A stretch of 64,000 bases of DNA from Buxus sempervirens. Its lineage: Eukaryota > Streptophyta > Magnoliopsida > Buxales > Buxaceae. Below the pieces are notes generated by a model. That model was not told the origin of the DNA and made no database searches. It was given only the letters and a program-made list of their open reading frames with translations. Shown in pieces: positions 5,358-30,349 of this stretch. The stretch is from NCBI GenBank assembly GCA_947561395.2, contig OX387190.1, forward strand, positions 33,412,858 through 33,476,857, given 5' to 3'. Numbering within the stretch: position 1 is the first letter of the stretch; each line of letters starts with the position of its first letter. The translations under genes and the position numbers were made by a program.

Positions 5358-5623
5358 AACCGCACTGTGTATGCGGTTTTTATAATTTCGGTGTAAACCG
5401 CTCTGTATGTGCGGTTACAACCGCACAGACAGCACGGTTCAGGTCCTTGCTTGTCGCGCTGGCGGCCACGTGGCTTCAAGAAGCTTCGGCCGTTAGGCCG
5501 CGTGTCCAGCACTCGATTAAAGCATAACTGAATTGAACCGTTCTGTATATGCGGTTTAGTCAATTTTGTATTAAACCGCACTTTGAGTGGCGGTTCTGTG
5601 GAAACCGCACTGAGTATACGGTT
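5358..5623. promoter_or_regulatory. Cluster of six 21-base near-palindromes in the 5' LTR
   Basis: Each copy is AACCG, 11 bases, CGGTT: 5358-5378, 5396-5416, 5419-5439, 5536-5556, 5574-5595 (12-base core) and 5603-5623. The best copies extend the arms to AACCGCA/TGCGGTT around a 7-base centre like CTGTGTA. The core CTG gives the motif a direction; 5419 runs opposite to its neighbours. The cluster lies 0.2-0.47 kb upstream of the TATA box, as enhancer elements in U3 do. CGGTT fits the MYB core CNGTTR when a purine follows; that link is only a guess. Confidence 0.85.
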
Positions 5624-5824
5624 TTGGCTGTTTCAAGGCTTTGCGAAATGGCTCGATCTCTGAGCCTTATTTACGCATATTACCTCTCTCTCAGGGACTT
5701 GAACTCCCTATTTCACCCTCCGAAACTTGCTGAATTACACCAATTCATGCCTTGGAGGAGAATTGGAATAATCTAGAAGGCCTTTTTGGCCTACCCTTGG
5801 GACTCTTCTACCCTTGACTTGGCC

Positions 5825-5832
5825 TATAAATA
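5825..5832 (+). promoter_or_regulatory. TATA box of the 5' LTR
   Basis: TATAAATA in the context GGCCTATAAATAGAGAGG, a canonical plant core promoter for the genomic transcript. The 3' LTR has the same box at 26953-26960. Confidence 0.75.
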
Positions 5833-7653
5833 GAGAGGCCCTCCTCTTGCAAATGGCTGGTAATTTGAAGCTTGGAAGCTCTGCAAGAAGAAGAGAAGCT
5901 CTGCTGGATTGTCTACTCAAAGCTCAAGCTACCTAAGGTAAAGCTCTCCTTTGGTTTTCCAGTACTCTCTTTATAATTCCAACTCCCATCTTCTACCTTT
6001 CTGTAGTATAAGGCCTCTGTGCATTCTTGCAACCCCAAACCCCTTCTAAAGTACCTGGGAATCCTCTCTAGCCGTAAAACGTGAAGAGAGAGCCTGGGGA
6101 AAAGGAAGGTGGAATGGATCCTCTAGGCTTAGAACCCTCAAGTGACGAAAAGCATGTTATATGGTTATTTTGAGCCCTTGAATGCTTCTCTGATCATTTT
6201 TTGTATTTGGAGAAGATGTGAATCCATGCTCTCAACAGCCATGGATTCCAACTTTCTCATAGAAATGTGATTTTCCAAATCTTTGCACCCACTTTTCACT
6301 ATTTTCATCAAATAGGCTAGATCTTGGATTTCCATGTAAATATGGAAAATCTGAGATCATTGGCCTTAGAATGAGTTTTTAGAAGTTCATGAGTTGTTTT
6401 TCATGATTTTAAATTGTTTTGGTCGAATCCACTTGCACACATACACTGATTTTGGCTTCTTATTCAAAGTCCTTCAAAAACAGGACAGATCTGTAGCCTG
6501 TCTTGGAATGCTCATAACTTCATCCTCCGGATGAATTTTTGAGTGATTCCAAAGACATGTGATAGATTGGGAAGTCTATTTAATATCTGGAAAATTTCGT
6601 TTGCTTCCATGTAGCCAATTTTTGATACCATCTCTTCAAAGTTTGTAAGACAGTTCAGCCCAGATTGCTGAACTTGCCACTTCGATGGTGCACTATTTGC
6701 TCAGTTTTAATCCGTTTTATGTGATTTCAATTTCTGAGTTTTCTTTGAGAAGTCTATTTTCATTTCCAACAAGTTTCAGCAGATTTCAATCTGTTTTGTG
6801 CCTTGGGTGCTCATTTGACTCAGAAGTGCTCGCTGGCATAGTCCAGAGCTCATCTGTGGCCTTCTAGGCCTGTTCAAGAGAGCACACAAGTCACATCCGG
6901 ATAGAGATTGATGTGAGGTTTTTTTCTTTGGAAAGATGTCACTACATACTTCCTCCATACCAATTTTCAGGGATTTTTATTGAGCCAAACTCCACGAATA
7001 GAGCTTTGAAAATGCCTACTTAACACTTTTTCTGAGTTATAACAGCAAATTTCATATGTGGATTTCTCTCTCGGGTTGAATCGAATTGAGCTGAATTTTT
7101 TACTGTATACTCTACTATATACCAGTTTTCAAATGGCTTTGGTTTCATTTGATTTAGATTTAAATTGAATGAGTTATGGTTTATCAAAGCTTTCAAGCTC
7201 TTTTGACCGAATTTCTCCAGATTTGCCTTGGCTTGATTTTCTTCATTTTTACTTCGATTTCACTTCACTCATGAAGTTTTAGAAGTGATGAATCCACAAA
7301 GAGAGTCTAAACTCATTAGACTTCTCATGTGGAATGGTCACACACATTGTGCTTGTTAAGCACCTTTTTGTTAATTTTACTAGCAAACAATTTATAGCAT
7401 AAGCAAGCATGTGGTAACCGTCTTAGACGGATGAGTGGGGGTGCCTAACACCTTCCCCCGCTCATAAATAATTCCCCGTACCCAATCTCTGGATTTTTCC
7501 ATATATTAGAGCTACTTTGGCTCTGTTTGGCTTTTATGAACCCGTTGGTGTCCATTCACACCCTTAAGATGGATGGTGGCGACTCTTATTCTTATCGATC
7601 CCCGCGTGACGATATAGGAGGTCATCATAGATGACATTTCCATGTCTCACAAC

Positions 7654-9261: not shown

Positions 9262-9348
9262 AACCGTCCTGAGTATGCGGTTGTCTGCATTTTCGCTGCA
9301 ACCGCATATATCATACGGTTTGGGCCAAACCGTCCTGAGTGTGCGGTT
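9262..9348. promoter_or_regulatory. Cluster of three 21-base near-palindromes in the leader
   Basis: Copies at 9262-9282 (core TCCTGAGTATG), 9300-9320 (core CATATATCATA) and 9328-9348 (core TCCTGAGTGTG), each flanked by AACCG and CGGTT. They are spaced 18 and 7 bases apart. Confidence 0.85.
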
Positions 9349-11078: not shown

Positions 11079-14000
11079 ATGAACCCTGCTGAAGAACAAT
11101 CTACTGTTTCGGCTGAGGCCTTTGCTCAACTGCAAGAGCAAGTGGCAGGGATGACCAAACTGCTGGAGAATTTGCTGGCCAACCAAGCCGCTCAGGCTCA
11201 GGTGCAGGCGCAACAGGCGCAGGCTCAGGTTCACCAAGCTTCATCATCCCACAATGCACCACCACAGGCTCCACCCCAAACTGAACTTCCACCACCAATC
11301 CAACCTATCCCACCTCAACCTGAACCCTCTCATCCAAACCCCGAGCCTATCCTGATCCGGGAGGAGGAATCTGAATGCGAGAAGGAAAAGGGAAAAGAAA
11401 AAGAGAGACTGAGGGTAGAAGTAGAGAGAAAATTTTTGGATAAACTGGAGTCCATTCAGGAGGAATTGAAAGAAGTCAGGGGGATCAACACGTTGGGTGG
11501 TACCAACTTCCAAGATCTCTGCCTGTACCCCGACGCATGCTTACCGGCCAAATTTAAGTGCCCGGACTTTGAAAAATATGACGGCACCGGATGCCCAATG
11601 AGCCATCTGAAGCTCTACTGTGGGGCGTTATGCCAATTTGGCCGGGATGATGGCATCCTGATCCAACTATTCCAGAGAAGCCTAACTGGGGCAGCCTTGA
11701 GATGGTTCGCAACTGTGGACCATGGCAGAATCAGAAGGTGGAAGGACCTAGCTGATGCTTTCCTTGCTCAGTACCGTTTCAATGCTGACATCGTGCCAGA
11801 TAGGTACGATATGATGAAAATGAGTAAGGGAAGAGATGAGACAGTTAGGCAATATGCCAAAAGATGGAGAGAGGCCGCCTCTCAAGTCAGGCCTCCCATG
11901 ATGGAGCCAGAGATGGTTACCACCTTCATTGGCACATTGGGGCATCCATTTTACAATCACTTGGTGGGTCAGGTTACCACCAGTTTCGCTGCCCTAGTAC
12001 TGGTCGCGGACCGGATTGAAGATGGAATCAGATCCGGACGAATCCACGACCATTCTGCCACAGCTCGTCAGCAGGAGCCCACTTTTGATCCTTCTGCCCA
12101 GAAGCAGAAAAATGGGGCAAGAAGGAATGGAGGAAATAAAGAAGGGGAAGTAAACATGGTACAACCCCAACCACCACAAAAACCCATCCAAATCAATATT
12201 GCTGCACCTCCACCCAGTCCGGTGCAGCCACAATCGACCTATCAAAACCCTCTCAACATTAATGTTCCTCAGGCAGCAATGCCCAACCAAAAAAGGGTAT
12301 TCTTAAAAGAGGAGAGAGACGCTTGGATGGCGTCCAGAAGAAGCAGGGTCCTTTCCCCTCTTCCTGTGACACCATCCCAACTTTTGCCATCTTTGTTAAA
12401 CGCAGGGTATGTCACCCTGAAAGAACCAAATCCGAATGCTTCAAAGGGAAAGAATTTCGATCCCTCCACCACCTGTGAATACCATATGGGTGCACCAGGA
12501 CACCCTACAGACAGGTGCTGGCCATTAAAACACGCCATTCAAGATTTGATCGATCAGGGAACCCTGTTGTTTAACACAGCTGCACCCTCTCCCACCAGGA
12601 CTGACATTGGTCAGAATCCTCTGCCCCAGCATAATGGGGCTGGTCCTTCCAATTTCGTAGGGACCATCTCTTCTAGACCTAGGACGTTTGATCCCTCGCA
12701 GTTAATTGCGCCAATAGGGACGTCCGTTAAGGTCTATTTTGACCAGGAAGGGATAGAGGAACAAATCAACGTCATTTCTGGAAATAATGGAAATGGCAAG
12801 ACTGCAGAGGACATTAATGCCTCTCTAAACCGGGCCGCCTCTCTCATGGCCCAGCTTAATGTAGCCAAACCCCCTCTCATTATTAATTGCAACCAGGCTG
12901 TTGCTTCCCCCACTACTCCATCACCCAAACCATCTTTGGTCATTAATTATGACCCCACCACTGCTTCAATTACGTCTGTTTCTTCTCAGACCTTAAAATC
13001 CTCTCAACCCAAGGCACCAAGGCAATCTTCGCCTCTGGTTATTGAGGTGCCTTCTTCTAACCTTATTCCTACATCAGCTCCTGCACCTAGGTCCCACCTC
13101 CAACCCTTGGTATTTAACGTGCCTAAACCCTCTTATTCAGAAACCGCTGTACCTTGGAACTACAGCGAGGGTTATACGACCACTATCCCAGTGGCCGGAA
13201 ATCAAGGTCAGGAGGAGGTAAACCTCATGACAAGATCAGGGAGGTGTGTAGAAGGAAAAGAACAAGAAAGGAAAGAGGCAGAGCAAGTCCAGAAGGGGAA
13301 GGCCAAAATAGGGGAAGACACCCCTCAGGTTGACAATAAGGAGGCAGAGGATCTCCTAAAAATACTGAAAAAGAGTGAATTCAATATTGTTGACCAACTA
13401 ACCAAGGTCCCTGCCCAGATATCAATACTGGGATTATTGCTTAATTCAGAAAAGCATAAGGACTCACTAATGAAGGTACTCCAGAGCGCCCATGTGCCCA
13501 AAACAATTGAGCCAGACCAGCTCGGCACGATGATCGGCCAGATCCTATCTCACAATGTGATAAGCTTTTCAGAAAGCGAGATTAGCCCTATTGGAGGCTA
13601 TCACATGGACCCTTTGCACATCACTGTGCTCTGTAAGGGTAACATGATAGCCAGGGTCCTAATTGACAATGGGTCGGCCTTAAACGTCTGCCCCCTTGTA
13701 ACATGTGTGAGACTTGGTCTGGACCAATCCAAGATAAAGCAAAACGGGAGGGTGGTAAGAGCTTTCGATAGCTCCAAAACACACTCCCTGGGAGAGATTG
13801 AACTACCGATTACCATCGGACCGAATATCTTTAATATCACATTCGAAGTGATAGATATTCCGGCTGCCTTCAATCTACTTCTGGGAAGGTCGTGGATCCA
13901 CTCAGCTAGGGCTATACCCTCTACTCTTCATCAAAGAGTAAAATTTATAAGAGGCCAAAGGGTAATAACGGTCCTAGCCGAGAACCTAGTCCCTCCTGTC

Positions 14001-14852
14001 ATACCACCTGACGTACCTTTCATTAATGTAGAATTAACGGCGGACAAAATTGCTTTTCACTCTTTTCAGTTCGAAACAGTCAACTTCATACCTGGGGGGT
14101 GTCAAAAGAAAGAGAGGTTGACCTGCGCCAATAAGATGGTGGAGAAGGTCTTAAAGGATTGCAATTTCCACCCAGGGAAGGGGTTGGGAATTAACCTGCA
14201 AGGAAGGGTGACGCCCATAGAGGCACAGAGGCTAGTCCCACGAGTAGGACTGGGGATGAAAATGAGAAGATGGAAGAGGGGATCACAGAAAGAAAATGAG
14301 AGGGGAAAGAATCAAGAAAAGTTCCCTCATTTAAGGGAAACTTTCCCGAGGCCCTCTCATACCATTCAATTGGCTCCTCCTGCAGATTCCTCCAAGCCTC
14401 CGTATTTCAATGACAACCCTTTTAGAAAGCCTTATACCTCAACCCTTCAACCTTTTATCCCCCTCTCATCCACTTTGACGCCTGAAGCCACGGATGAGCC
14501 TGAGCCACTGCCACAAGAGCAGCAGGATTTCACAGAGGAGACAGGGGCATTCTTTGCAATGACAGAGAATGAAGGAAGAGATAAAGCAGAAGAAGAAGTT
14601 CCTTTTATCGACTGGGCCTCAATCAAGATTCCTGATGAGGTCACCTCGGAACTCAGCCCCGAAGCAGAAAAGGGCAGTTTTTCAAATCCGGTAATGATGG
14701 TATCGGATCGAGAGTTTGAGGAGGAACGGGTTTGCACTATACCACCTGTTCCAGAGGGCTTTGTATTGAAAAATTGGGAAGAGACCCCCTTGACATTTGA
14801 GGCTGCATATGGTTGGCAATCAGCTGCGGCCTCCAAAAAAAAACTCCATTAG
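11079..14852 (+). CDS. Gag-protease polyprotein of the Ogre-like element
   Basis: 1257 codons from an ATG in good context (CTACCATGAAC). Order: glutamine/proline-rich N-terminus, charged coil around residues 95-140, retrotransposon gag domain at about residues 157-330 (CPDFEKYDG, GAALRWFA), an unusual zinc-knuckle-like element near residue 466 (CEYHMGAPGHPTDRC), an aspartic protease with LIDNGSALNVCP (catalytic Asp about residue 863) and LLLGRSWIH, then a G-patch-like stretch near residues 1030-1055 (HPGKGLGINLQG). DNGS in place of DTGS/DSGS is usual in the Tat group. Gag forms the particle, and protease cuts the polyprotein. The ORF ends in a region that overlaps pol in the -1 frame. No internal stops. 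Confidence 0.92.
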   Translation: MNPAEEQSTVSAEAFAQLQEQVAGMTKLLENLLANQAAQAQVQAQQAQAQVHQASSSHNAPPQAPPQTELPPPIQPIPPQPEPSHPNPEPILIREEESECEKEKGKEKERLRVEVERKFLDKLESIQEELKEVRGINTLGGTNFQDLCLYPDACLPAKFKCPDFEKYDGTGCPMSHLKLYCGALCQFGRDDGILIQLFQRSLTGAALRWFATVDHGRIRRWKDLADAFLAQYRFNADIVPDRYDMMKMSKGRDETVRQYAKRWREAASQVRPPMMEPEMVTTFIGTLGHPFYNHLVGQVTTSFAALVLVADRIEDGIRSGRIHDHSATARQQEPTFDPSAQKQKNGARRNGGNKEGEVNMVQPQPPQKPIQINIAAPPPSPVQPQSTYQNPLNINVPQAAMPNQKRVFLKEERDAWMASRRSRVLSPLPVTPSQLLPSLLNAGYVTLKEPNPNASKGKNFDPSTTCEYHMGAPGHPTDRCWPLKHAIQDLIDQGTLLFNTAAPSPTRTDIGQNPLPQHNGAGPSNFVGTISSRPRTFDPSQLIAPIGTSVKVYFDQEGIEEQINVISGNNGNGKTAEDINASLNRAASLMAQLNVAKPPLIINCNQAVASPTTPSPKPSLVINYDPTTASITSVSSQTLKSSQPKAPRQSSPLVIEVPSSNLIPTSAPAPRSHLQPLVFNVPKPSYSETAVPWNYSEGYTTTIPVAGNQGQEEVNLMTRSGRCVEGKEQERKEAEQVQKGKAKIGEDTPQVDNKEAEDLLKILKKSEFNIVDQLTKVPAQISILGLLLNSEKHKDSLMKVLQSAHVPKTIEPDQLGTMIGQILSHNVISFSESEISPIGGYHMDPLHITVLCKGNMIARVLIDNGSALNVCPLVTCVRLGLDQSKIKQNGRVVRAFDSSKTHSLGEIELPITIGPNIFNITFEVIDIPAAFNLLLGRSWIHSARAIPSTLHQRVKFIRGQRVITVLAENLVPPVIPPDVPFINVELTADKIAFHSFQFETVNFIPGGCQKKERLTCANKMVEKVLKDCNFHPGKGLGINLQGRVTPIEAQRLVPRVGLGMKMRRWKRGSQKENERGKNQEKFPHLRETFPRPSHTIQLAPPADSSKPPYFNDNPFRKPYTSTLQPFIPLSSTLTPEATDEPEPLPQEQQDFTEETGAFFAMTENEGRDKAEEEVPFIDWASIKIPDEVTSELSPEAEKGSFSNPVMMVSDREFEEERVCTIPPVPEGFVLKNWEETPLTFEAAYGWQSAAASKKKLH

Positions 14853-17800
14853 TGGATTGCCCTTTTCCTGAAGGTTTTAATGAACCTTCATCTTCAGGAA
14901 AAGCCTTTTTAGAAGGTTCTCAAAAAACTCAAAAAGATTTCTCAATTTTTTCTAGAAAATCTAAAGCTTTCAAAATGGTCCAGACTGCTTATGAGCCATA
15001 TATACAGACTGAATTAGAGCAAGTTGAATACGACTTCGACCTCGAGCTCGACTTCGACCTAATGGGGATTGAAGAGGAGATCGAGGCCGAAGACGATGAC
15101 CTTCCAAGAGAAATATCATATCAATTGGAACGTCACGAAAAAGGTATTCAACCTAATATTGAAGAAACCATTTCTATAAACCTGGGAACTGAAGAGGACC
15201 CAAAAATTGTAAAGATTGGTGCATGCTTGTCTGAAATACAGCAGAAAGAAATGTCCCAATTCTTGGCCGATTACAAGGACGTGTTCGCATGGTCTTATCG
15301 GGATATGCCAGGGTTGGATACAGACATGGTTGTACACAGGCTGCCCATCCTGCCAGGAGTAAAACCTATTAAGCAGAAATTGAGAAGGTTGAAACCGGAA
15401 TGGACTTTGAAAGTCAAAGATGAAGTAGTGAAGCAGTTTCAAGCCGGGTTTTTGGCGGTGTCCACATACCCTGATTGGCTAGCCAATATAGTCCCAGTTC
15501 CAAAGAAGGATGGAAAAGTCAGGATGTGTGTGGATTACAGAGATTTGAACAAAGCGAGCCCGAAGGATGACTTCCCATTGCCACACATCGACATCTTGGT
15601 TGATAATACGGCAGTGCACAGCCTGTTCTCTTTTATGGATGGCTTTTCCGGATACAACCAAATTAAAATGGCAAAGGAGGATCAAGAGAAAACCGCTTTT
15701 ATTACTCCTTGGGGAACCTTCCACTACACAGTCATGCCTTTTGGTTTAAAGAATGCCGGGGCGACGTATCAGCGAGCCATGACAGCCCTTTTCCATGATA
15801 TGATCCACAAAGAGATGGAAGTATATGTGGATGATATGATTGCCAAATCATGTGAAGAGGAAGACCACTTAATCAATCTAAAGAGGGTATTTGACCGTCT
15901 AAGGAAGTACAGCTTAAGGCTTAATCCAGCAAAGTGTGTCTTTGGAGCCACATCTGGGAAATTATTGGGATTCATTGTAAGCAGAAGAGGGATTGAGATA
16001 GACCCGTCTAAAGCCAAGGCAATCATCGAGATGCCAGCTCCTAAGACTGAAAAAGAAGTTAGGGGCTTTCTGGGAAGAATTCAGTATATCAGCCGGTTCA
16101 TAGCACAACTTACTGCTATTTGCGAGCCGATCTTTAAACTTCTAAGGAAGAATAACCCTACTATCTGGAATGGGGATTGCCAACAAGCATTCGACAAAAT
16201 AAAGGATTATCTGTCAAATCCTCCTGTTCTAGTACCGCCAATTCCAGGAAAACCACTGATTCTGTATCTATCAGTTCTAGAAACATCAATGGGATGTGTA
16301 TTGGGGCAGCATGATGAAACAGGCAGAAAAGAAAAGGCTATCTACTATTTGAGCAAGAAGTTTACAGATTATGAGACAAGATATTCGCCATTGGAAAAGA
16401 CTTGTTGCGCTTTGGTCTGGGCGACTCAAAGGCTTAGGCACTATTTTTTAAGCTATTCGACTTTGCTGATCTCAAGGATGGATCCGCTAAAATATCTGTT
16501 TGAGAAGCCGGCTTTAACTGGTAGAACAGCAAAGTGGCAGCTTTTGCTTTCAGAATTCGACCTGACATATGTCACTCAGAAAGCAATCAAAGGTCAGGCA
16601 ATTGCTGACCACCTAGCTGAGCATCCATTACCAGATTATCAACCTCTTAAGACGAATTTCCCGGATGAGGCCATCTTATTCGCTGAAGAAGAAAGTGAAG
16701 ACTCCTGGCAGATGTTCTTTGATGGGGCTGCAAATATGAATGGAAATGGGATCGGCGCAGTATTAGTAAAGCCAGATGGTTCACATATCCCAATTGCAGT
16801 GAAATTAAGATTTCAGTGCACGAACAACATAGCAGAGTATGAGGCATGTATAATCGGATTACAGGCTGCTCTGGACCATGATGTTCAAGAACTTGACGTA
16901 TATGGAGATTCGAGTCTTATCATCTTCCAAACAACTGGGGAATGGAAAACCAAAGATCATAAGTTGATCCCATATCACCAATATTTGGAAGAAATAAGTA
17001 CCAAATTTACTCGAATTTCTTTTAGCTATATGCCAAGGGCTAAGAATCAATTTGCGGATGCCTTGGCGACATTGGCCTCAATGGTTAGTATTCCAGAAGG
17101 GGTAGACATACAACCACTTGAAATTGAAGTCAGAGACGAGCCAGCTTACTGTCTTGTTTTGGAAGGAGCGCAAGAAACAGAAATACCATGGTTCCAAGAT
17201 ATTAAGAATTTCTTGGATAATCGAAATTTACCAGAAAGCGCTAGTCCCACTGAAAAAAGAACAATACAGAAGCTAGCAGGACAGTTTCTTCTAAGTGGTG
17301 GGCAGTTGTATAAGAGATCCTACAATAATGTTCTACTCAGATGCGTCACCAAGGTTGAAGCAGAAAGGTTGATTGAAACAGTGCACGGGGGAGTATGTGG
17401 GCCGCACATGAATGGACACATGCTCGCAAGGAAAATATTGCGATTGGGATATTATTGGTCTACAATGGAGTACGATTGCTGCCTACATGTTAAGAGATGC
17501 CATTTGTGCCAAATATATGCTGATAATAAGCATGCACCACCAAGTGAGCTGCACAGCATGACCTCTCCATGGCCATTCTCTATGTGGGGTATTGATGTCA
17601 TTGGGATGATTTCTCCAAAAGCATCTAATGGACACCGGTTCATTCTAGTGGCAATTGATTATTTCACAAAATGGGTTGAAGCTGCTTCGTATGCAAATAT
17701 CACAGGAAACCATGTTCTTAAGTTTCTAAAGCACAACATAATTTGTCGCTATGGGTTGCCAAAAGCCATAGTTTCAGACAATGCTTCGAATATTAAGAAC

Positions 17801-18436
17801 AAGGATATGAAGGAGATGTGTGAGCAGTTTCAGATAACCCATCACAAATCAGCCCCTTACAGGCCAAAAATGAATGGAGCAGTAGAAGCGGCAAATAAGA
17901 ATATAAAGAAAATAATCCAGAAGATGGTGGTAAGCTATAGAGATTGGCACGAGATGTTACCATTTGCTCTCCATGCTTACAGAACCTCGATCCGAACTTC
18001 TACTGGGGCAACGCCATATTCCTTGGTTTATGGAACAGAGGCAGTCTTACCTGTTGAGGTAGAAATCCCTTCATTAAGAGTGCTTATGGAAACAGAGCTG
18101 GAAGAGGCGGAATGGGTTCAGTCTAGATATGAGCAACTTAATCTGATAGAAGAAAAGCGGTTGAATGCGCTTTGCCATGGTCAACTGTATCAGAGGAGAA
18201 TGGCCAGGGCCTACAACAAGAAAGTGAAGCCCAGAGCTTTCCAAGTGGGTAATCTAGTCTTAAAGAAGATATTACCATTTCTGGAAGACCCTCGTGGAAA
18301 GTTTAAGCCGAATTGGGAAGGACCTTATGTAGTAAAGAAGGTCTTGTCAGGAGGAGCTCTTATCCTGACAGAAATGGATGGGGCAGATTTTCCTGAGCCA
18401 ATCAACTCCGATGCGGTCAAGCAATATTTCCCTTGA
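14813..18436 (+). CDS. Pol polyprotein: RT, RNase H, second RNase H, integrase
   Basis: Open for 1207 codons from a nominal ATG at 14813; real entry is more likely by frameshifting from gag near 14835. RT spans about residues 200-400, with WLANIVPVPKKDGKVRMCVD and the catalytic YVDD (Asp 340, 341). A gypsy RNase H follows (about 470-600), then an archaeal-type RNase H beginning MFFDGAANMNGNG (Asp 637), the mark of Tat/Ogre elements. Integrase has an HHCC finger (near 880-915) and the triad Asp 928, Asp 989 and Glu 1025 with 35 residues between the last two. The C-terminal part has GPYVV, as in gypsy integrases. All catalytic motifs are present and no stops break it. It makes and inserts the DNA copy. 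Confidence 0.93.
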   Translation: MAISCGLQKKTPLVDCPFPEGFNEPSSSGKAFLEGSQKTQKDFSIFSRKSKAFKMVQTAYEPYIQTELEQVEYDFDLELDFDLMGIEEEIEAEDDDLPREISYQLERHEKGIQPNIEETISINLGTEEDPKIVKIGACLSEIQQKEMSQFLADYKDVFAWSYRDMPGLDTDMVVHRLPILPGVKPIKQKLRRLKPEWTLKVKDEVVKQFQAGFLAVSTYPDWLANIVPVPKKDGKVRMCVDYRDLNKASPKDDFPLPHIDILVDNTAVHSLFSFMDGFSGYNQIKMAKEDQEKTAFITPWGTFHYTVMPFGLKNAGATYQRAMTALFHDMIHKEMEVYVDDMIAKSCEEEDHLINLKRVFDRLRKYSLRLNPAKCVFGATSGKLLGFIVSRRGIEIDPSKAKAIIEMPAPKTEKEVRGFLGRIQYISRFIAQLTAICEPIFKLLRKNNPTIWNGDCQQAFDKIKDYLSNPPVLVPPIPGKPLILYLSVLETSMGCVLGQHDETGRKEKAIYYLSKKFTDYETRYSPLEKTCCALVWATQRLRHYFLSYSTLLISRMDPLKYLFEKPALTGRTAKWQLLLSEFDLTYVTQKAIKGQAIADHLAEHPLPDYQPLKTNFPDEAILFAEEESEDSWQMFFDGAANMNGNGIGAVLVKPDGSHIPIAVKLRFQCTNNIAEYEACIIGLQAALDHDVQELDVYGDSSLIIFQTTGEWKTKDHKLIPYHQYLEEISTKFTRISFSYMPRAKNQFADALATLASMVSIPEGVDIQPLEIEVRDEPAYCLVLEGAQETEIPWFQDIKNFLDNRNLPESASPTEKRTIQKLAGQFLLSGGQLYKRSYNNVLLRCVTKVEAERLIETVHGGVCGPHMNGHMLARKILRLGYYWSTMEYDCCLHVKRCHLCQIYADNKHAPPSELHSMTSPWPFSMWGIDVIGMISPKASNGHRFILVAIDYFTKWVEAASYANITGNHVLKFLKHNIICRYGLPKAIVSDNASNIKNKDMKEMCEQFQITHHKSAPYRPKMNGAVEAANKNIKKIIQKMVVSYRDWHEMLPFALHAYRTSIRTSTGATPYSLVYGTEAVLPVEVEIPSLRVLMETELEEAEWVQSRYEQLNLIEEKRLNALCHGQLYQRRMARAYNKKVKPRAFQVGNLVLKKILPFLEDPRGKFKPNWEGPYVVKKVLSGGALILTEMDGADFPEPINSDAVKQYFP
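14835..14843 (+). promoter_or_regulatory. Candidate -1 frameshift site (nine A)
   Basis: In the gag-protease frame the text reads TCC AAA AAA AAA CTC CAT TAG; the -1 frame continues into pol (ACT CCA TTA GTG GAT). The run fits the slippery pattern X XXY YYZ. The gag stop is 9 bases after the run. In Ogre elements an intron in this area is the usual described solution, so splicing remains an alternative; a one-base length error in the A run would also mimic this. Confidence 0.55.
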
Positions 18437-19483
18437 AGGAATATCACAAGGAAATGATCCGAGGCCATTTTTCTTCCTCCCTCACAAATTCTAATATCCC
18501 TAGTTTAAACCAAGTTGAGCCTGTTCGTGTTTTAAAGAACCCAAACTGGAGCTTACAGTCGCGAATGGAGCAGGGTTAATAGAAAAACAAAAAGGGAAAT
18601 AGAAAAGAAAGGCCAAAAGAAAAAAAACAGAGGGCCAATATTGGGAATGGGGGGTCGCATCCATTATGACTGTAAGCCCAGTTGTCCCATTTTCAAGATG
18701 TTAAAATATTGAGCCTATAATAACTTTTTTTCATAAACCCAGCCCAGCCTTCATTTCGTCCTATCGATCAAGTCCTCGGTGATCTGGGTGTATTCCTTCA
18801 AGCTCGGGATGTTGAAAGGGCAATGACGGAATAAAACAGGCCGGTCCTAGTGAAAACCGTAACAGGCACTAGGGGCAATATTGGCAGAAAGAAGGCGAAA
18901 GAAAAAAGAGAATAAAAGAAAAGGAAGAAACAGGAAAAAGGTCACCAACCGTACTTGGGATACAGATTGAACCAAACCGCCCTTTTTCTACGGTTTTGGC
19001 AGAAGGGCTATGCAACCGCATACTGAAGACGGTTTTGGCTAAACCGTTCTGAATACGCGGTTTTGCGCAGCAGAAGTGAATTGAGCAGATTTTCTGCACA
19101 GGACTGAACCAGAAGGCTGGGGCAGGCCCACTGAAGGTGGGAAGGAAACTTGGGGATGAGTCTAAGGGTTCCAAGGGGGATGGATTGGCTTTCTCCTCAT
19201 TAACTGAAATACCCTTTTTGCCCAACTTACTTCAATTCGTCCAACTATATGGGATTAAAGCATTATGGACCAATTTACAATAAAAACACACAAAAATGAA
19301 AACTATATTTTGGCCAATGATGAGAAATCAGTGACTTTTCATTAAAACGGTCAGTTTTTACAAGCATATGAGAGTTCTGAGGCCAATAGTATAAAAACCT
19401 ACTTTGTATTCTCTATCTTTCCACTAGTGGAGTTTCTCTTTGTACAGAAGTGTAAAAAAGGAAAAAAAATATAATGAAAGGGG
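18437..19483. other. Noncoding gap between pol and the antisense genes
   Basis: No supported gene. It holds three near-palindromes (18975-19062) and is the zone where the sense pol transcript and the antisense gene 19484-21138 converge. Purine-rich text at 18590-18630 and 18885-18940. Confidence 0.7.
18975..19062. promoter_or_regulatory. Cluster of three 21-base near-palindromes after pol
   Basis: Copies at 18975-18995 (core CCCTTTTTCTA), 19014-19034 (core CATACTGAAGA, reverse direction) and 19042-19062 (core TTCTGAATACG), all within AACCG...CGGTT arms. Confidence 0.85.
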
Positions 19484-21138
19484 CTAATCTCTATCCCCTA
19501 GCCTCTCCTCAAGCTCTCTGATCCGAGCCGCCTGAACCGCCACAAGCCTTTCAGCCCCCTCTGCATCTGGGTCACTGAGGAATGAGATGACGTCATCGGA
19601 GAGAGTCTGCCTGGTCCTCAAATCTCTGAGCCTGGCCATGGTCTCGTCATGCCTGCGCCATGCGGCTCTCACCTCGAAGCGACGAGCCTGTATCTGCTCT
19701 GATAATCGCCGCTCCAGGTCTTCTTTCTCCAACCTCAAAGTGCGGGCCTCCTCCACCCATATGAGCTGAAGCCGCCTATGAGAAGCCCGCTCGGTCTCCA
19801 AGAGGTCCTCATAAGTAGGACACGGGATAGCGGGAGGATCAGCCGGTACAGAGGCACAGCTCTGCACCTGCTCCCTAATCCAAAGGAGATAGTCCTTCTC
19901 ATGTAATTTGGAGAAGACGGGACCTCTCAAAAAGCAGGCCTGCGACCATTCCTTCAAAAGGCGGAAGCAGAGGCCCATGGTGGCTGGTGTGAGCGGACCT
20001 ATGAGCTCTTCATATCCCTGAGGTACTAGGATCCCCTGCACCTCCTCTCCAAACTGCCGGATGACCCTCAAAGGCAAATAGAGCAAGGCAGACCTCAAGC
20101 CCATGAGCACAGCGAAGTTTCGGTCAGAGAAGCTGATCACTGTCTCAACGGAGGGCTGGTAAGCACCGGGCCATCTCACCTGGTCGTCCTGAAGAGTCCC
20201 CAAGAAAGCAAACCATCCCTGTTTGCCGCCATGTATATTGGGACACCCCCTGTTGCTCATCAAAACAGGAACGTCCAATCTGGGGAAGAAGCGCCGGGTT
20301 ATCTCTTCAACTTGACTCAGGTGGTCAAGTAACTAGAGCTGCACAAAACAGGGAAGCATTTCCAACCTTAGAAAATTTCAACATGGCAATAATAATTACA
20401 ATTCAAGGAAAGAGATTCAAATTTTACCTGAAGTATAGGGGCGCAGGCAAGGAAACTTTTCTGCTTCCTGTGATAGCAGTCAGTCAAGGCCTGGTATATT
20501 TCAGCCAGGATCATAGGGGCGAGCCTTTCGCGCTCCCTAACTTGGCAAATGACTGAAATGAGGGATAGATCAACCTCACTATCACCTCGGGGGAATAAAA
20601 GTTGATTGACCACTATCAAGGTCAAAGCATTGAACCGGGCCGACTGGTTTGGGCTATTCAACAGCTTTTCAGTCAAAAATGACTTTGATAGGGTCAATAA
20701 AGCGTCGGCTTCCCCTAACTCTTTCTTGTTAATCCCCAAAAAGGTGGAGGCTTCCTTTTTGAAGCTCGGTTTGAGAGGTGGGTTAACTACTTTCTTAGAA
20801 AAGCTAAGGTTGAGGATGGTTTCAACCTCCTCGACTGTAGGGGTCATCTCTTTTTCCCCAAACCTGAAGAGGTTCAATTGAGGCTCCCAATGCCCAATTA
20901 GTGCCTCTATGATTTCCCATTTTAGAGGAATCTTTGGGATTGAAAGGAGGTGGCCTAGATTGGCGGAGGCCCAATCCATCTCATCTTGAGGGGTCATTGA
21001 AGAGACCCACCTCTCATAGAATGTATCTACTATGGCATACCTAGTCAAATTAGGAGGTTTGGACCTAATTTTTGGTCTAGGTGCTGATATTTCAGGTACA
21101 GAAGATGAAGAAGGCACAGAAGCTGAACCAGAAGCCAT
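19484..21138 (-). CDS. Antisense accessory gene 1: DUF7745-like coiled-coil protein, two exons
   Basis: Exon 1 is 21138-20428 and exon 2 is 20332-19484, joined over a 95-bp GT-AG intron (donor CAG|GTAAAA, acceptor CTCTAG|TTACTT) in phase 0. The nearby TGCAG acceptor would give an immediate stop, so the TAG site is preferred. The product is about 519 residues. The N-terminal half (TRYAIVDTFYERWVSSMTP ... WEIIEALIGHWEPQLNLF ... PTVEEVETILNL) resembles the plant DUF7745 family, judged from memory. The C-terminal 120 residues are a charged coiled coil (TLRLEKEDLERRLSEQIQA) ending GDRD. No function is established. It runs against pol and sits upstream of the PMD-like gene on the same strand. Open reading through both exons suggests selection or recent capture. 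Confidence 0.72.
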
Positions 21139-21269: not shown

Positions 21270-21387
21270 AACCGCATACACAGAACGGTTGTGTCTAAAC
21301 CGCACTTAATATGCGGTTGCATTCCCGCAAAGTTTAAAAACCGCGGGATAAGTACGGTTCTTGCACAACCGCCCTGAATGTACGGTT
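21270..21387. promoter_or_regulatory. Cluster of four 21-base near-palindromes upstream of antisense gene 1
   Basis: Copies at 21270-21290 (core CATACACAGAA, reverse direction), 21298-21318 (CACTTAATATG), 21339-21359 (CGGGATAAGTA) and 21367-21387 (CCCTGAATGTA). A lone half site CGGTT lies at 21244-21248. The cluster is 132-249 bases before the ATG of antisense gene 1, where its promoter should be, and about 220 bases beyond the end of antisense gene 2. Confidence 0.85.
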
Positions 21388-21604: not shown

Positions 21605-24420
21605 TCAATCCCTATCGCCTCTACCTCGCCGTCGCTGCCGGATGAAAAAGTGATCTGAGAAGCGCTGACTAGCGGGAGATGAAGGCTCACCAAGCGAGGA
21701 TGGACCAGCAGGAGCCACCGGGTCTGCAGGAGGCGCAGGATAGGTAGAAGAGGCTGAGGCTGGAGCTGGATCACCCCGGGTCAGGTCCATGAAGCATGAA
21801 ACTGAAGAGTCTGTCGCCAAGGGAACCAGCTCTAGAACCCGAGAGTCCTCGACCGGAGGAGATGGATCTGCTACGCCGGGAACATCCTCCTCTCTCGTAA
21901 GCTCGACCACCTCTGGATCTGCTACGACGGGAACATCCTCCTCTCTCGTAGGCTCGGCCGCCTCATGAACCACAGGAATCTCCGACCCACCCTCCGCTGG
22001 CTCAGGAGCAGTCTCCGGCTCAGATACAGGAGCGGTCTCAAATACAGGTGCAGCCTCCGGCATCTCGGCCGACTCAGGAACTACACCAGCAGAAGTAGCC
22101 TCGGCCGCCACCTCGCTCTCTCTCTCCGGGATCTCTATATCTCCTAAAGAGAAGGACAAAGTGCGGGAACTGGATGGTGAAGCCACCACATCCTCCTGAA
22201 AGGCAAAAACAGATTGATCAGAAGCAGAAAAGATAAAATAAAATACAGAAACTGGAAAAGACAGACCTGAGCTCCTGAAGGTCCCGCCTGACCCTGGGCA
22301 CTGGCCAACTGAGCCCGCAAGTCGGCAATGAGAGCGGCCTGCCCAGTAATGATGACATCGCTCTCAGCAATGGCAGCGTCCCTCTCAGCCAGCTGGCGCT
22401 CCAGATCCGCGTATCGAGCTCGGACCTCCTCCAGCTGTGCCTCCTGAAATGAGATAAGAAAAGAAAAGATATCAGTAAATAAGAAAGGAAGACTAAAAGA
22501 CTGCATAAGGAAAGGAGGTTCATACCGTGGTGTCATAGAGGCGGATCACTACCCCCCCTATCTCAGTAACTCCACCTCGAACGGGCATGGGCTGCATCAG
22601 ACAACCCACTGAGACCTGCCCGAACCAGGTATCATAGTCACCATCAACTAGAAGGCCATCTCCTGCCTCCCACTCGCCGAAATGGGCAGGGTCGAATGGA
22701 CCAGGAGGGATGAAAGGGGCTGTAGCTGGAGGAGCCACTGGGATCCGGAGCTCGCCAGTATGCTGGAAGAAAAATCGCTCGCCGAGGTACCATATACTAC
22801 CCAACTGCCTAATGAAGAATGGGTACCTCTGGCGCCGCTGATCCAGGGCGAAAGCGTCATCCACGAAGGGCTGAAAAGCCAGCTCGTCATGCAGGCCGTC
22901 AAGACGGGGGACAGATAGCTGAAAGTGAACAAAGAAGAATATCAGAATCTGATAAAAAGGAGAAAAGAAAATGAAGAAAAGAGAGAAGGGAAAAATGCTT
23001 ACCTCTCTCCTAAAGGTCCTGTCCAGGTGAGCCCTGGCCGACCTAGGGCGACTCTTCTCTGAGTCACGCCTAATCTGATTCCACCGGCGGGCCAAGGGAA
23101 ATGTCCCCTCAGACAAAGTGGAGGTAGGGCGAAAGTGGGCCACATAGACTCGAGCGAAGAACTGAAAAGAAGAAAAAAGAAGAAAAAAAAAAAAGAAGAG
23201 AGAACAAAAGAAAAGAAGAAAAAGAGGTTAATCAAAAAAGAAAAAAAAATATAAGAAAGAAAAGAAAGGAAAGAAAGAAGAAAAGAATTTATACCTGCAG
23301 AAAGGGCCAGAAAAATCTGCAACCTACTCCGGCTCCCCTGGGAGAAGACAGTCCGGAGACCACTCGTCGAAGGCCCGCTAGCAAGGTGCCATAGACAAGC
23401 TGGCCCCAAGCGTAGTCCCTCGCTCGGTGCAAATCCCGGAGAAGACTCAGGAAATGGGGGCTGACTGAAGTAGTATCCTCCAAGCAGAAGCAGGATCCCA
23501 TCATCAGAAGAAAGAGAAACCGGAAAGCTATCGGGAAGCTAGGATGATCCGCTGCTAGGGTACTGAATCCCCTCTCTATAAATGCCTCCCTCAACCATGT
23601 CCGGGAGATACGAGTGATCCGGCTCCGATCCCACGCCTCCACGGGCATCTCGTCGTATCCTAACAGCTCGGCAATCTCCAAGTCCGTCGGCCGATCCATC
23701 TCAGTGATGACATCTCCAGTCATCCTGATCCCGGTAATGAGGGCGAAGTCGGAGGGTCGAATGCCTATCTCCACGTCAGGCAGATGGAAGCTCAGAGTCT
23801 CTGGAAAAAAGCGCTCCAACAAAGCTAAGATCAAGGGCCGATCCTGACGGACGCCGGTGATGGTAATGAAGGGGCCAAATCCAAAACGGCCCATCTCTCG
23901 GCGCAGAGAGGACGAGCAAGCCCCTACTACATCAGCAAAAAGGGCCCAGCTCCCTCGGAAATGGGAAGAAGGATATCTAAGAGGGAGGTCTGCCCTAACG
24001 CCTGCCGAAGGATGCGTCGTCAAACTGTGAAGAAGAGAGGTGTCCCGGATCTGATCTGCTATCTCTGCAGGAATGGCGACACGAGTCGCCCGGGCTCCTG
24101 CCCTACCTCTACGACGGCCTCCCCTACGCTCTCGGACCTCATCAGCAGGCTAGAAAAGCAAATAAAAGAGGGTTTAAGTTGAATATGATAAAAGAAAGGC
24201 CAATTTTTGAAAAAGGGAAAGGGAATACCTCTGGGATCGACTCCAGCGAATCCCCAGACGCCCCAGAATCTGAATCTGAAAGCTCCAGACCACTGGGAGA
24301 AGAAGGCTCAGGGTCCGGCTCGGCCCTAAAAGAAGAGGCCACATCGGCCGGGTCCCTCCGAACCCTCGAAGACGAAGGCTCATCTGCGGGACCCCGGGAA
24401 GCGCGACGTGTGCGAGCCAT
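21605..24420 (-). CDS. Antisense accessory gene 2: plant-mobile-domain-like protein, six exons
   Basis: Six exons read cleanly with GT-AG introns, all in phase 0: 24420-24229, 24149-23295, 23161-23003, 22918-22526, 22443-22267 and 22195-21605; introns are 71-133 bp. The product is about 788 residues. The N-terminus is basic and serine-rich (MARTRRASRGPADEPSSSRV). Exons 2-4 resemble the aminotransferase-like plant mobile domain, e.g. LALLERFFPETLSFHLPDVE then FALITGIRMTGD at about residues 170-206. Exon 5 is a short coiled coil (LERQLAERDAAIAESD). Exon 6 is acidic with a repeated TREEDVP and ends in a basic tail (RQRRRGRGDRD). PMD proteins such as MAIN/MAIL1 act in the nucleus in silencing and genome stability, and PMD ORFs are known inside plant transposons. 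Role here unknown. Confidence 0.78.
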
Positions 24421-26358
24421 CTACAGGACCAATTACAGGGAGAAATTCATTATGCTTCTTCATTTAAATAAAACCATGATATTTTCTTACATGTCTTCTT
24501 TAATTTTTCTTTTCTCTAAATTAATCTAATTTGTTTGGCTTGCAGAAAAATGGAGATCGCAGAAGACACTGCAAAAAAATTCTCAACCAAACCATGATCT
24601 GGCTATTCTATTCTTTAAAATTTTTGTTCTTTTAGAAGTTTTATTGCCATTATTATGCATTTAGGCGTATTTAAGACTTACATGCAAGAATGTGAAGGTT
24701 CCTGTATACTTATCTTATACGATAAAATGAAAAAGAAAAGGGTGCATTAAGAGTTAGCTTTTCTGGGAAATTTGTATCCCGGTTTGACATTTTAAGAGGC
24801 CTAACCATCTAATCCTATTTTCAGGATATCCAAGGCAGGCTCAAGTTAACAAGGAAAATACCCGGCAAAGCCAGGCAAATTGTTCAAGCCTAGCTAAAAT
24901 TACCAAGTCAAGCCCAAGCAAGCATATCAAATCAGCAGGTTCACAAGGAAAGGCGATTCAGGATCACTAAGTTCCTAACAAGCATCCAGGTGTTCAACTC
25001 AAATTAATGTTTCTGGTGCTAATAAGGTGTCAGCATCAATTGGATCCAAAGCCAATCAATGCCAGCATGCAAGTAAACCAAGAGCGGACATCTGTGCCAC
25101 TATCCCAAACAGCAAAGATCACACCTTTCCAGGTGGAACATCAACCAAGAAAAATCAGATTCATGACAGCATGCACAGATACAGAAGTTGGAAATATCAA
25201 ACAGCATTGGCCTTCAAAAGAATTGCAGAATGTTATGGCAAAATTCAGATAAACCTATGCTGTCCACAAGCACAGAAATTGGGAGGTCTCTCAATCAGGA
25301 ACAAGAACCCAAACCATACCAGAAATCTGAGCAGTACAAATCATGGTTGGGTTCAGATCAATTTTTACAATGGGCACATGCAAAATTGGGGATTTTCTCC
25401 CATCAGCAAATAAGCAGCCAATACAGTCAATCAAGGACAAAGAATCAAAATCATGCCTCAAACAAGTTCATTCAATCAGCAAATATATGCATGGATTTTC
25501 GGATGGAGAATTTGCATGAGAAGTCCAGATTCGGCCACCTACCTGTTTCGGCCGAAAATGTAAGAAATATAGAGGATTCAACCTCACCGGAGCTCCAGAA
25601 GAGAATGGCTGGACGATTGGCGAACTCAGAAAATCCTCGATCGATGAGGAGGCGGGGGCTGAGCTGTGGTAAGATGTCAAGAGCTCGCCGGAATCCACCA
25701 ACACAAGAGGTTGTTGATCACGGCTCACAACCGAAGTCGCCGGAGAGTCAAGAGTTTGCCGGAAAAGATGAAGCCGCCGGAGGAGGAGTAATCTCACCGG
25801 AGAAAAAAGGAGATGAAAGCCGGAGGGAAACCGCGGTCGCCAGAGGAAAGGGTAAGCTTCGAACTTCCAAGGGTTTCACGAGAGAAATGAAGCCAGACGC
25901 GGTCGCGGTCTCGGTTTTATGAAACCTAGAAAACCGCACACACAGAGCGGTTGGTAATAATATTGGTGAAAACCGCACATACAGCACGGTTGAAATTGAA
26001 AATGCTAAAAACCGCATGTTCAGTACGGTTGGCACCAAAAAATGAATTTTCAAAACTTTTTCAATCTCTCTCAAAGGATCTATGTCCAAGGCAGTTGCGA
26101 ATTGCAAGAAACACCATCCTACCAACTTTTGCTTTTAAAATTTGCTCAAATCTCACTTCATAGCCACGAGTGCTCCGTGAGAGGCGAGGAGAGGATTTGA
26201 GCCTTAAGGTTAGGGACTTTTCATCAAATCCTTGAAACAAATTCTTTTTCAAAAACCATATTGGAGTTCTTGCAGCTCATAATCAAATGGACATGATCCT
26301 GAGAGGTGCAATTTGCGGGTCTTTTGCTCTCCGCTGCCAATTGATTCCAATCACAGCG
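24421..26358. other. 3' noncoding region of the Ogre-like element
   Basis: No supported gene. The half near 25560-25920 is rich in CCGGAG-type words and is open on the plus strand for 244 codons (25188-25922), but composition is biased and nothing is recognisable. It may be captured host 5' sequence or leader of antisense gene 2. Three near-palindromes lie at 25932-26030. Confidence 0.55.
25932..26030. promoter_or_regulatory. Cluster of three 21-base near-palindromes near the 3' end
   Basis: Copies at 25932-25952 (core CACACACAGAG), 25971-25991 (CACATACAGCA) and 26010-26030 (CATGTTCAGTA). All three run in the reverse direction relative to most LTR copies, and starts are exactly 39 bases apart (25932, 25971, 26010). 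Confidence 0.87.
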
Positions 26359-26371
26359 AAGAGGGGGCAGT
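26359..26371 (+). other. Polypurine tract of the Ogre-like element
   Basis: AAGAGGGGGCAGT directly before the 3' LTR, the start point for plus-strand DNA synthesis. Confidence 0.8.
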
Positions 26372-28779
26372 TGTAGACACCCCCAAATTGCACCCCAATA
26401 TAAGAGATTAACTAAGAAGGGCTCCAAAGGTCTCATTTGAGCCTTGACATATGTCAAACTTTCAAAAACTTTCAAAAACAGTGCCAACCGCACTGTGTAT
26501 GCGGTTTTTATAATTTCGGTGTAAACCGCTCTGTATGTGCGGTTACAACCGCACAGACAGCACGGTTCAGGTCCTTGCTTGTCGCGCTGGCGGCCACGTG
26601 GCTTCAAGAAGCTTCGGCCGTTAGGCCGCGTGTCCAGCACTCGATTAAAGCATAACTGAATTGAACCGTTCTGTATATGCGGTTTAGTCAATTTTGTATT
26701 AAACCGCACTTTGAGTGGCGGTTCTGTGGAAACCGCACTGAGTATACGGTTTTGGCTGTTTCAAGGCTTTGCGAAATGGCTCGATCTCTGAGCCTTATTT
26801 ACGCATATTACCTCTCTCTCAGGGACTTGAACTCCCTATTTCACCCTCCGAAACTTGCTGAATTACACCAATTCATGCCTTGGAGGAGAATTGGAATAAT
26901 CTAGAAGGCCTTTTTGGCCTACCCTTGGGACTCTTCTACCCTTGACTTGGCCTATAAATAGAGAGGCCCTCCTCTTGCAAATGGCTGGTAATTTGAAGCT
27001 TGGAAGCTCTGCAAGAAGAAGAGAAGCTCTGCTGGATTGTCTACTCAAAGCTCAAGCTACCTAAGGTAAAGCTCTCCTTTGGTTTTCCAGTACTCTCTTT
27101 ATAATTCCAACTCCCATCTTCTACCTTTCTGTAGTATAAGGCCTCTGTGCATTCTTGCAACCCCAAACCCCTTCTAAAGTACCTGGGAATCCTCTCTAGT
27201 CGTAAAACGTGAAGAGAGAGCCTGGGGAAAAGGAAGGTGGAATGGATCCTCTAGGCTTAGAACCCTCAAGTGACGAAAAGCATGTTATATGGTTATTTTG
27301 AGCCCTTGAATGCTTCTCTGATCATTTTTTGTATTTGGAGAAGATGTGAATCCATGCTCTCAACAGCCATGGATTCCAACTTTCTCATAGAAATGTGATT
27401 TTCCAAATCTTTGCACCCACTTTTCACTATTTTCATCAAATAGGCTAGATCTTGGATTTCCATGTAAATATGGAAAATCTGAGATCATTGGCCTTAGAAT
27501 GAGTTTTTAGAAGTTCATGAGTTGTTTTTCATGATTTTAAATTGTTTTGGTCGAATCCACTTGCACACATACACTGATTTTGGCTTCTTATTCAAAGTCC
27601 TTCAAAAACAGGACAGATCTGTAGCCTGTCTTGGAATGCTCATAACTTCATCCTCCGGATGAATTTTTGAGTGATTCCAAAGACATGTGATAGATTGGGA
27701 AGTCTATTTAATATCTGGAAAATTTCGTTTGCTTCCATGTAGCCAATTTTTGATACCATCTCTTCAAAGTTTGTAAGACAGTTCAGCCCAGATTGCTGAA
27801 CTTGCCACTTCGATGGTGCACTATTTGCTCAGTTTTAATCCGTTTTATGTGATTTCAATTTCTGAGTTTTCTTTGAGAAGTCTATTTTCATTTCCAACAA
27901 GTTTCAGCAGATTTCAATCTGTTTTGTGCCTTGGGTGCTCATTTGACTCAGAAGTGCTCGCTGGCATAGTCCAGAGCTCATCTGTGGCCTTCTAGGCCTG
28001 TTCAAGAGAGCACACAAGTCACATCCGGATAGAGATTGATGTGAGGTTTTTTTCTTTGGAAAGATGTCACTACATACTTCCTCCATACCAATTTTCAGGG
28101 ATTTTTATTGAGCCAAACTCCACGAATAGAGCTTTGAAAATGCCTACTTAACACTTTTTCTGAGTTATAACAGCAAATTTCATATGTGGATTTCTCTCTC
28201 GGGTTGAATCGAATTGAGCTGAATTTTTTACTGTATACTCTACTATATACCAGTTTTCAAATGGCTTTGGTTTCATTTGATTTAGATTTAAATTGAATGA
28301 GTTATGGTTTATCAAAGCTTTCAAGCTCTTTTGACCGAATTTCTCCAGATTTGCCTTGGCTTGATTTTCTTCATTTTTACTTCGATTTCACTTCACTCAT
28401 GAAGTTTTAGAAGTGATGAATCCACAAAGAGAGTCTAAACTCATTAGACTTCTCATGTGGAATGGTCACACACATTGTGCTTGTTAAGCACCTTTTTGTT
28501 AATTTTACTAGCAAACAATTTATAGCATAAGCAAGCATGTGGTAACCGTCTTAGACGGATGAGTGGGGGTGCCTAACACCTTCCCCCGCTCATAAATAAT
28601 TCCCCGTACCCAATCTCTGGATTTTTCCATATATTAGAGCTACTTTGGCTCTGTTTGGCTTTTATGAACCCGTTGGTGTCCATTCACACCCTTAAGATGG
28701 ATGGTGGCGACTCTTATTCTTATCGATCCCCGCGTGACGATATAGGAGGTCATCATAGATGACATTTCCATGTCTCACA
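26372..28779 (+). repeat. 3' LTR of the Ogre-like element
   Basis: 2408 bp; same TATA box (26953-26960) and the same six near-palindromes as the 5' LTR, starting at 26486, 26524, 26547, 26664, 26702 and 26731. One base differs from the 5' LTR (27200). The target duplication ATGCC follows at 28780-28784. Confidence 0.95.
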
Positions 28780-30344: not shown

Positions 30345-30349
30345 TTGTG

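Follow-up and report, generated by a model that had tools for sequence, protein, structure and literature searches.

Among the closest described systems is the Arabidopsis transposon VANDAL21. Its VANC21 protein binds a 9-base motif that is dense in noncoding stretches of the transposon, and VANCs related to it bind different targets (PMC5735166, PMC10398659). Coevolution of VANCs and their targets is mentioned as unpublished work in a 2026 meeting report (PMC12859917). Within the Tat clade of long terminal repeat (LTR) retrotransposons, a Plant Mobile Domain (PMD) is common yet not universal in Ogre elements, where 57% carry it (PMC6317226), and a DNA-binding, regulatory role has been proposed for the antisense TRP28 protein of Retand (PMC11963269). 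In Arabidopsis, genes that depend on MAIN/MAIL1/PP7L have the DOWN promoter motif in 25 of 26 cases (PMC7156037). Here and below, statements on published systems refer to the sections of the cited papers covered in this analysis. We analyzed a 64,000-nucleotide stretch of Buxus sempervirens DNA (contig OX387190.1, positions 33,412,858 to 33,476,857; hereafter the window) and found that a young 23.5-kb Tat-type LTR retrotransposon at 5244-28779 carries, in spaced arrays, every window copy of a 21-bp dyad. The features of these arrays indicate that the sites are very probably protein-binding operators. The best single reading, to which we assign a probability of roughly 55%, is that an element-encoded PMD protein would be the binder.

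The system resembles VANDAL/VANC in having short motifs dense in noncoding transposon DNA, a fast-evolving extra gene, and targets that vary between related families and include the upstream regions of element genes. However, VANDALs are Mutator-like DNA transposons, whereas the window element is an LTR retrotransposon with gag-pol. VANC21 recognizes a 9-mer arrayed in one orientation, in comparison to a 21-bp dyad here, with cores both ways and steps of ~28 or ~39 bp. Binding and demethylation have been shown for VANC, whereas the window system is known from sequence alone. VANC has DUF1985 and DUF287, whereas antisense gene A of the window element has a PMD; DUF1985 is matched only below the cut-off (E 0.063; 13.7 bits against a required 35.1) and in a single gene A copy out of three, at residues 173-214 of the reverse-strand piece 23289-24023 and inside its PMD match. 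With Ogre and Retand the element shares a dual-RNase H pol, extra open reading frames (ORFs) and antisense ORFs after pol, but the covered sections describe no target motif, dyad or spaced array in these elements (PMC6317226, PMC11963269). Unlike the Retand protein, the window antisense proteins match PMD/DUF7745, not TRP28. MAIN and MAIL1 belong to the same domain family, and the genes dependent on them have a promoter motif in common. They are, however, Arabidopsis host genes, the motif is per the text a single one rather than a spaced dyad array, and direct recognition of DOWN is a hypothesis in those papers (PMC7156037, PMC9899485). Full-text searches of open-licence papers gave no description of such sites in the titles and abstract openings listed, and among the papers listed for the motif letters (10 of 71) none concerned retrotransposons, as judged by title; the author of an earlier first-pass annotation of the window had likewise known of none.

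That annotation had reported about 25 near-palindromes in tight clusters, all 21 bp long save one per LTR. Scanning the window for AACCG-N(10-12)-CGGTT, we recovered 25 exact sites in just these clusters, all within the one element; 23 are 21 bp long and two, at 5574 and 26702, are 22 bp. In 100 dinucleotide shuffles of the window the mean was 0.07 sites and the maximum 2, so a similar density is absent from shuffled sequence. The 23 gap-11 sites of the element are all perfect, with no further site one arm mismatch away, and in the other 40,464 window bases no site with zero or one arm mismatch occurs at any gap from 9 to 13. As the two LTRs duplicate each other, only 19 of the 25 sites are independent. 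Chance origin is ruled out by the shuffles, the mismatch scan and the genome control counts given below. The clusters, none of which has a strand, are as follows (the six 3' LTR sites are listed with that LTR further below).

5358..5439, LTR sites 1-3 (starts 5358, 5396, 5419)
5536..5623, LTR sites 4-6 (starts 5536, 5574 (22 bp), 5603)
9262..9348, leader cluster, three sites, from the exact-pattern scan
18975..19062, post-pol cluster, three sites, from the exact-pattern scan; no counterpart seen in the sister family (family 2)
21270..21387, cluster upstream of antisense gene B, four sites, with 132 bp between the ATG and the closest site edge
25932..26030, cluster upstream of antisense gene A, three sites; a TATA-like sequence, read by eye, lies ~10 bp away

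The arms had been described as constant and the core as drifting. For the 18 independent 21-mers (3' LTR copies and 22-bp site excluded), the 11 oriented core positions hold 11.4 bits of information, whereas 200 shuffles averaged 3.07 bits and reached at most 4.12; the core is therefore constrained rather than drifting. A freely drifting core is excluded by the core information of both the window family and family 2. The commonest letters of the oriented sites read AACCG-Y-N-C-T-G-W-R-T-R-T-G-CGGTT, and the core is reversed in 8 of the 18. Without orientation, T6 together with A16 occurs in none of the 18 sites (Fisher p 0.023), which means that every site has the extended AACCGC in one half or in both.

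The annotation had also offered the sites as RNA hairpins, which might serve in packaging, in processing or as small-RNA precursors. Near-palindromes could fold, and genomic RNA should contain the internal clusters along with the copy in the 3' LTR. The inner positions, however, pair no more often than with shuffled partners: out of 18 sites, pairing was observed in 8 for positions 6-16 (10.2 with shuffled partners), in 6 for 7-15 (8.2), in 10 for 8-14 (10.3) and in 0 for 9-13 (8.4). The core also occurs in both orientations, and the two main spacings differ by about one turn of DNA, which leaves RNA hairpins hardly credible. Instead, the sites would be double-stranded DNA operators in the form of 21-bp dyads. 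Each dyad consists of two outward-facing CGG half-sites 11 bp apart, with family-specific outer bases and a directional core, and would probably be occupied by one dimer. Gal4-type upstream activating sequences are also dimer operators with CGG half-sites 11 bp apart, several of them upstream of a TATA box. Here the half-sites face the opposite way (CCG-N11-CGG), and Pfam reported no Zn2Cys6 domain in the scanned antisense pieces.

Neighboring sites are mostly ~28 or ~39 bp apart. The 13 window spacers measure 2, 7 (five times), 17 (three times), 18 (three times) and 20 nt. Tested against a uniform distribution, they support a 10.5-bp period with R 0.76 (p 0.0006), although the test does not fix the period itself, R running from 0.70 at 9.5 up to 0.775 at 11.5. 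In the DNA that we fetched, gap-11 dyads number 149, compared to 0-10 at each of ten other gaps; this count includes both LTRs of some elements and small stretch overlaps, with the near-duplicate L003 left out. The 74 unique neighbor distances of up to 130 bp in the fetched DNA fall at 28 (12) and 38-39 (40), and 14 more lie near sums of 28 and 39 (56, 67-69, 77-78 and 117-118), the 67-69 class being in part steps over a 22-bp site. The remainder are 23 (3), 41, 83, 103 (2) and 110. LTR sites 2-3 (5396-5439) have an odd 23-bp step outside this scheme, which is kept in relatives too. Since the ~28- and ~39-bp steps are about one helical turn apart from each other, they would let dimers sit side by side. 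Fixed spacing is also typical of tandem arrays, and the arrays could be functionless remnants of tandem duplication. The 7-nt spacers do show a weak resemblance to one another (p 0.004), but none is detectable among those of 17-18 nt (p 0.14).

Related elements, which the first-pass annotation had named as a place to look, were assessed through nine diverged LTR relatives from elsewhere in the genome, each found through at least one exact site. All six LTR sites stay in register in these relatives. Of their arm positions, 313 of 324 (non-CpG) and 199 of 215 (CpG) match the window (93-97%), compared to 1242 of 1682 and 170 of 234 for the background (73-74%); core letters (440 of 601) do no better than background. 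Because the relatives were found via an exact site, we also dropped the best site of each, which leaves 422 of 450 arm positions identical and perfect arms in 24 of 45 sites. The fifth LTR site is likewise 22 bp wherever it is intact, and the LTR TATA box TATAAATA is found in six of the nine aligned relatives. In one relative with 82% LTR identity (L015), five LTR sites are intact and three sites lie upstream of gene B; the motif is the same, and the nonsynonymous divergence (dN) is 0.08-0.22 for gene A and 0.07-0.10 for gene B. That relatives keep the arms above background argues against remnants of tandem duplication.

The clusters are best compared between families against the following features of the window element.

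5244..7651, forward strand, 5' LTR, 2408 bp, from self-comparison
26372..28779, forward strand, 3' LTR, with six sites as in the 5' LTR (26486-26751)
5825..5832, forward strand, LTR TATA box, at LTR position 582, with the LTR sites upstream
11079..14852, forward strand, gag-protease ORF with Retrotrans_gag and G-patch; protease by position only
14975..18436, forward strand, pol ORF with reverse transcriptase (RT), RNase H, a second RNase H-like domain (RVT_3) and integrase
19484..21138, reverse strand, antisense gene B, exons ~20368-21138 and 19484-20278, DUF7745/PMD, ATG at 21138
21605..24420, reverse strand, antisense gene A, several exons, PMD in 23289-24023, presumed first ATG 24420

Family 2 is represented by E4234 (C1:4234021-4257023, LTRs 99.6% identical) and E6367 (C1:6367038-6385193, LTRs 100% identical). 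Their pol is 91% identical to that of the window element (86% over the first 200 residues of E4234), compared to 60-72% for protein B and 47-55% for protein A, the latter in E4234 only. Family 2 instead has ATCCG-N11-CGGAT, again 21 bp and mostly inside TATCCGG-N9-CCGGATA; an AACCG dyad occurs once in each element, as AACCGGCAACTCAGGCCGGTT in the leader. The ATCCG sites of E4234 are found in the LTR (four), in the leader (two) and upstream of gene B (four) and gene A (two), with none following pol. E6367 lacks gene A as well as gene B exon 1; its LTR carries four sites and its leader three. Adjacent ATCCG sites within these clusters are always 39 bp apart. When dyads were searched for in general, ATCCG-N11 tied for first place in E4234 but came third in E6367, where two other dyads ranked higher. 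Over nine positions, the core of family 2 carries 6.8 bits, compared to a null mean of 4.2 and a null maximum of 5.0 (one identical pair merged, 19 to 18, and each family oriented separately). Positions 9-11 favor T, G and A in family 2 (11, 10 and 15 of 18) and T, G and W in family 1, that of the window (17 and 13 of 18, A or T 9 each), which suggests a modest common core. The first exon of gene B in E4234 (L022) has an in-frame stop in the window-aligned region, from either a broken frame or an exon border, and another LTR family (L020, 7010-8275, with a sequence resembling a primer-binding site at 9336) has TATCCGG dyads in 39-bp steps.

The LTR and leader cluster DNA cannot be aligned between the families, save for 35 bp at the LTR TATA region, and in 10 of 12 comparisons of the window with family 2, divergence at synonymous sites (dS) exceeds 2 or is saturated. 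That the dyad, a regular spacing and the cluster positions are common to both families, in DNA that otherwise cannot be aligned, points to selection. Since tandem duplication does not account for arrays that reappear at the same places in such DNA, we regard it as a quite improbable origin. The first-pass suggestion of a dimeric protein on the outer half-sites is well supported, as far as sequence can tell, by length, core, spacing, orientations, relatives and sister family. The best reading of the arm switch is that the specificity of an operator-binding dimeric protein may change from family to family.

Next to genes, the arrays keep their positions. The LTR sites of family 2 also lie upstream of a TATA box, at LTR position 389-390. 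Upstream of gene B, the distance of 132 bp from the nearest site edge to the ATG is the same in E4234 as in the window; E4234 has a TATA box 15 bp past the cluster; none was found at this place in the window. For gene A, both families have a TATA-like sequence ~10 bp past the cluster, read by eye and unmatched by the consensus scan, and after it a GCGACCGCG stretch common to both. In the window, a TATA box lies 64 bp downstream of the leader cluster. The only leader matches in family 2 fall within or next to the sites themselves, which makes a promoter in the leader conjectural. The earlier claim that clusters mark the edge of every transcription unit fits the LTR promoter and both antisense genes; for the leader and post-pol clusters it is conjectural, and the sister family has no cluster after pol. 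Since arrays precede the LTR promoter as well as antisense genes A and B, one protein could control these units together.

These positions would also suit host transcription factors, for example dimers of MYB or GARP type, with each family active wherever its factor occurs and different families using different paralogues of one host factor family. AACCG/CGGTT presumably resembles plant MYB cores, and we take TATCC/GGATA to resemble MYB-related or GARP sites; the arrays lie upstream of the LTR TATA boxes and near the TATA-like sequences of the antisense genes. However, the sister family keeps dyad length and a regular 39-bp spacing with other outer bases in all of its arrays, so several paralogues of the same geometry would be needed, and the window outside the element lacks any site at up to one arm mismatch. 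The arm switch between families makes MYB or other host factors less likely, and we consider this explanation, the next best, unlikely overall.

We return to an element-encoded binder, most likely the product of an antisense PMD gene, with gene A favored. The protein would act in trans as a self-activator or anti-silencer, and a change in its specificity would be followed by a change in the arrays of that family. Between the window and family 2, dN is 0.04-0.07 for pol, 0.18-0.25 for gag, 0.22-0.27 for B and 0.38-0.52 for A, the highest of all. The ratio dN/dS is 0.03-0.21 over all genes wherever dS is finite, and 0.08-0.21 for gene B in five comparisons, so that the antisense genes look to be under constraint. 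Arrays also persist where gene A is missing. E3383 (L028/L018/L030; C1:3383766-3395573) is young, with LTRs ~99.5% identical, has part of gag only and gave no pol or antisense protein hits. It has three sites in the LTR, four in the leader (including one AACCGG) and two near the 3' LTR. Both E6367 and E3383, young elements in which gene A gave no protein hit, thus retain LTR and leader arrays, as action in trans predicts. The gene A exon gave 3,262 first-look candidates in the genome, and the best 150 scored were all at least 89% identical; a protein search with the gene B exon gave 808 candidates, none at E 0.001 or better.

A possible link to host genes comes from the DOWN motif, printed for the MORC1 promoter as CATGCAGTTT (PMC9899485). 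This instance matches the window half-site CATGCGGTTT at 9 of 10 bases, which a random 10-mer reaches against 36 half-sites with a frequency of 0.00075. We take the likeness as a lead from a single instance. It would also suit a different reader, namely host silencing or chromatin machinery, or a host PMD protein of the MAIN/MAIL1 kind, that marks the element for repression, since host PMD proteins are required both for transposon silencing and for expression of DOWN-motif genes. Recognition by a repressor alone, however, should favor site loss, whereas the arms have been retained despite divergence of the background, and every gap-11 site of the young window element is perfect. We judge such a repressive mark improbable. 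A wider proposal, which we put forward tentatively, is that the antisense PMD proteins are dimeric, sequence-specific transactivators or anti-silencers whose specificity switches with the operator, that MAIN/MAIL1 descend from them and that DOWN is a relic half-site.

Several points weigh against an element-encoded PMD binder and its link to DOWN. By weight matrix, 1.1% of random 10-mers equal the score of the DOWN instance, and the CATGCA inside that instance is presumably an RY-like core. Over all pairs of ten LTRs the contrast is smaller, with arms at 92.4%, background at 79.2% and core at 74.3%, and L015 has no exact site upstream of gene A. Since gag has also diverged, fast divergence fails to single out gene A, and with arrays kept in non-autonomous copies a host factor would do equally well. 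Only two families were compared in full. A single-sequence structure model of the gene A exon was useless (pLDDT 37), and of two PDB sequence searches one gave two weak matches (E 0.31 and 0.96) and the other none. In the sections covered, no DNA-binding activity of the PMD is reported, and chromatin binding in Arabidopsis is called unknown (PMC9899485).

Genome-wide (676.5 Mb), AACCG dyads number 19,195, compared to 1,691 for the reversed-pattern control. The first-pass statement that no sites occur outside the element holds within the window but not for the genome, where density is 28 per Mb versus ~1,060 per Mb in the element. ATCCG dyads number 48,312 (292 for the reversed control), and a third class, GCCCG-N11-CGGGC, 17,547 (1,289). 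The reversed controls lack the CpG and should therefore, if anything, be commoner. Together the three classes give ~85,000 exact matches in the 677-Mb genome, background not subtracted, tied to elements only at the few described loci. Among the places listed (85 ATCCG and 54 AACCG, from the start of contig C1 only and with near-identical copies included), the 53 ATCCG neighbor distances of up to 130 bp are 39 (44), 38 (2), 77-78 (6) and 103 (1). The AACCG distances are less regular, at 38 (5), 23 (2), 28 (2), 68-69 (4), 56 and 117, and three mixed AACCG/ATCCG neighbors are each 39 bp apart. The GCCCG class has steps of 28, 55-56 and 109-111 bp. Many copies of a third-class dyad, TGCCCGTA-N7-TACGGGCA, occur at 28-bp spacing in L004 (2383-2571) and also in L001, L005, L006 and L029; a weak gag match adjoins those in L001, and L033, a stretch beside the GCCCG class, has no dyad and no match.

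In the literature covered, no biochemical function has been assigned to the antisense ORFs of Tat-type retrotransposons or to the PMD, and the three-class site set would offer a sharp, cheap handle on whether PMD proteins bind DNA. If the proposed reading is true, it would explain how extra genes help Tat-type elements. It would also extend protein-operator co-evolution of the VANC type to LTR retrotransposons and link it to the control of gene expression by host PMD proteins.

The class of the window element follows from its pol ORF, in which Pfam places RT at residues 229-389, RNase H at 452-582, RVT_3 at 636-754 and rve at 921-1018; the extra RNase H between RNase H and integrase assigns it to the Tat clade by the criterion of PMC6317226. 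The PMD extra ORF, an Ogre trait, is present, with PF10536 above the cut-off in one exon each of gene A (1.5e-15) and gene B (first exon, 1.3e-11, together with PF24924 at 5.4e-22). The Retand trait Transposase_28 (PF04195) gave no match in the antisense pieces scanned exon by exon. Exon borders of both antisense genes were read by eye. In self-comparison the LTR pair differs at one position in 2,409 columns (99.96% identity). A 5-bp target duplication, ATGCC, flanks the element (5239-5243 and 28780-28784), and the empty insertion site is readable in a paralogous copy near 48843. Directly 3' of the LTR lies the primer-binding site TGGCGACTCTGCTGGGGA; its tentative assignment to tRNA-Arg, the primer of the Ogre lineage, draws on PMC9289625.

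A copia-type LTR retrotransposon with identical 387-bp LTRs lies at 29958-34865 in the same receptor-kinase gene cluster and has none of the sites. In the Tat-type element, the G-patch domain occupies residues 1023-1061 of the gag ORF 11079-14852, close to its end. Upstream of gag, the leader contains tandem repeats at 10052-10387 (~78-bp units) and 10420-10806 (~137-bp units), and leader repeat arrays are likewise found in three relatives.

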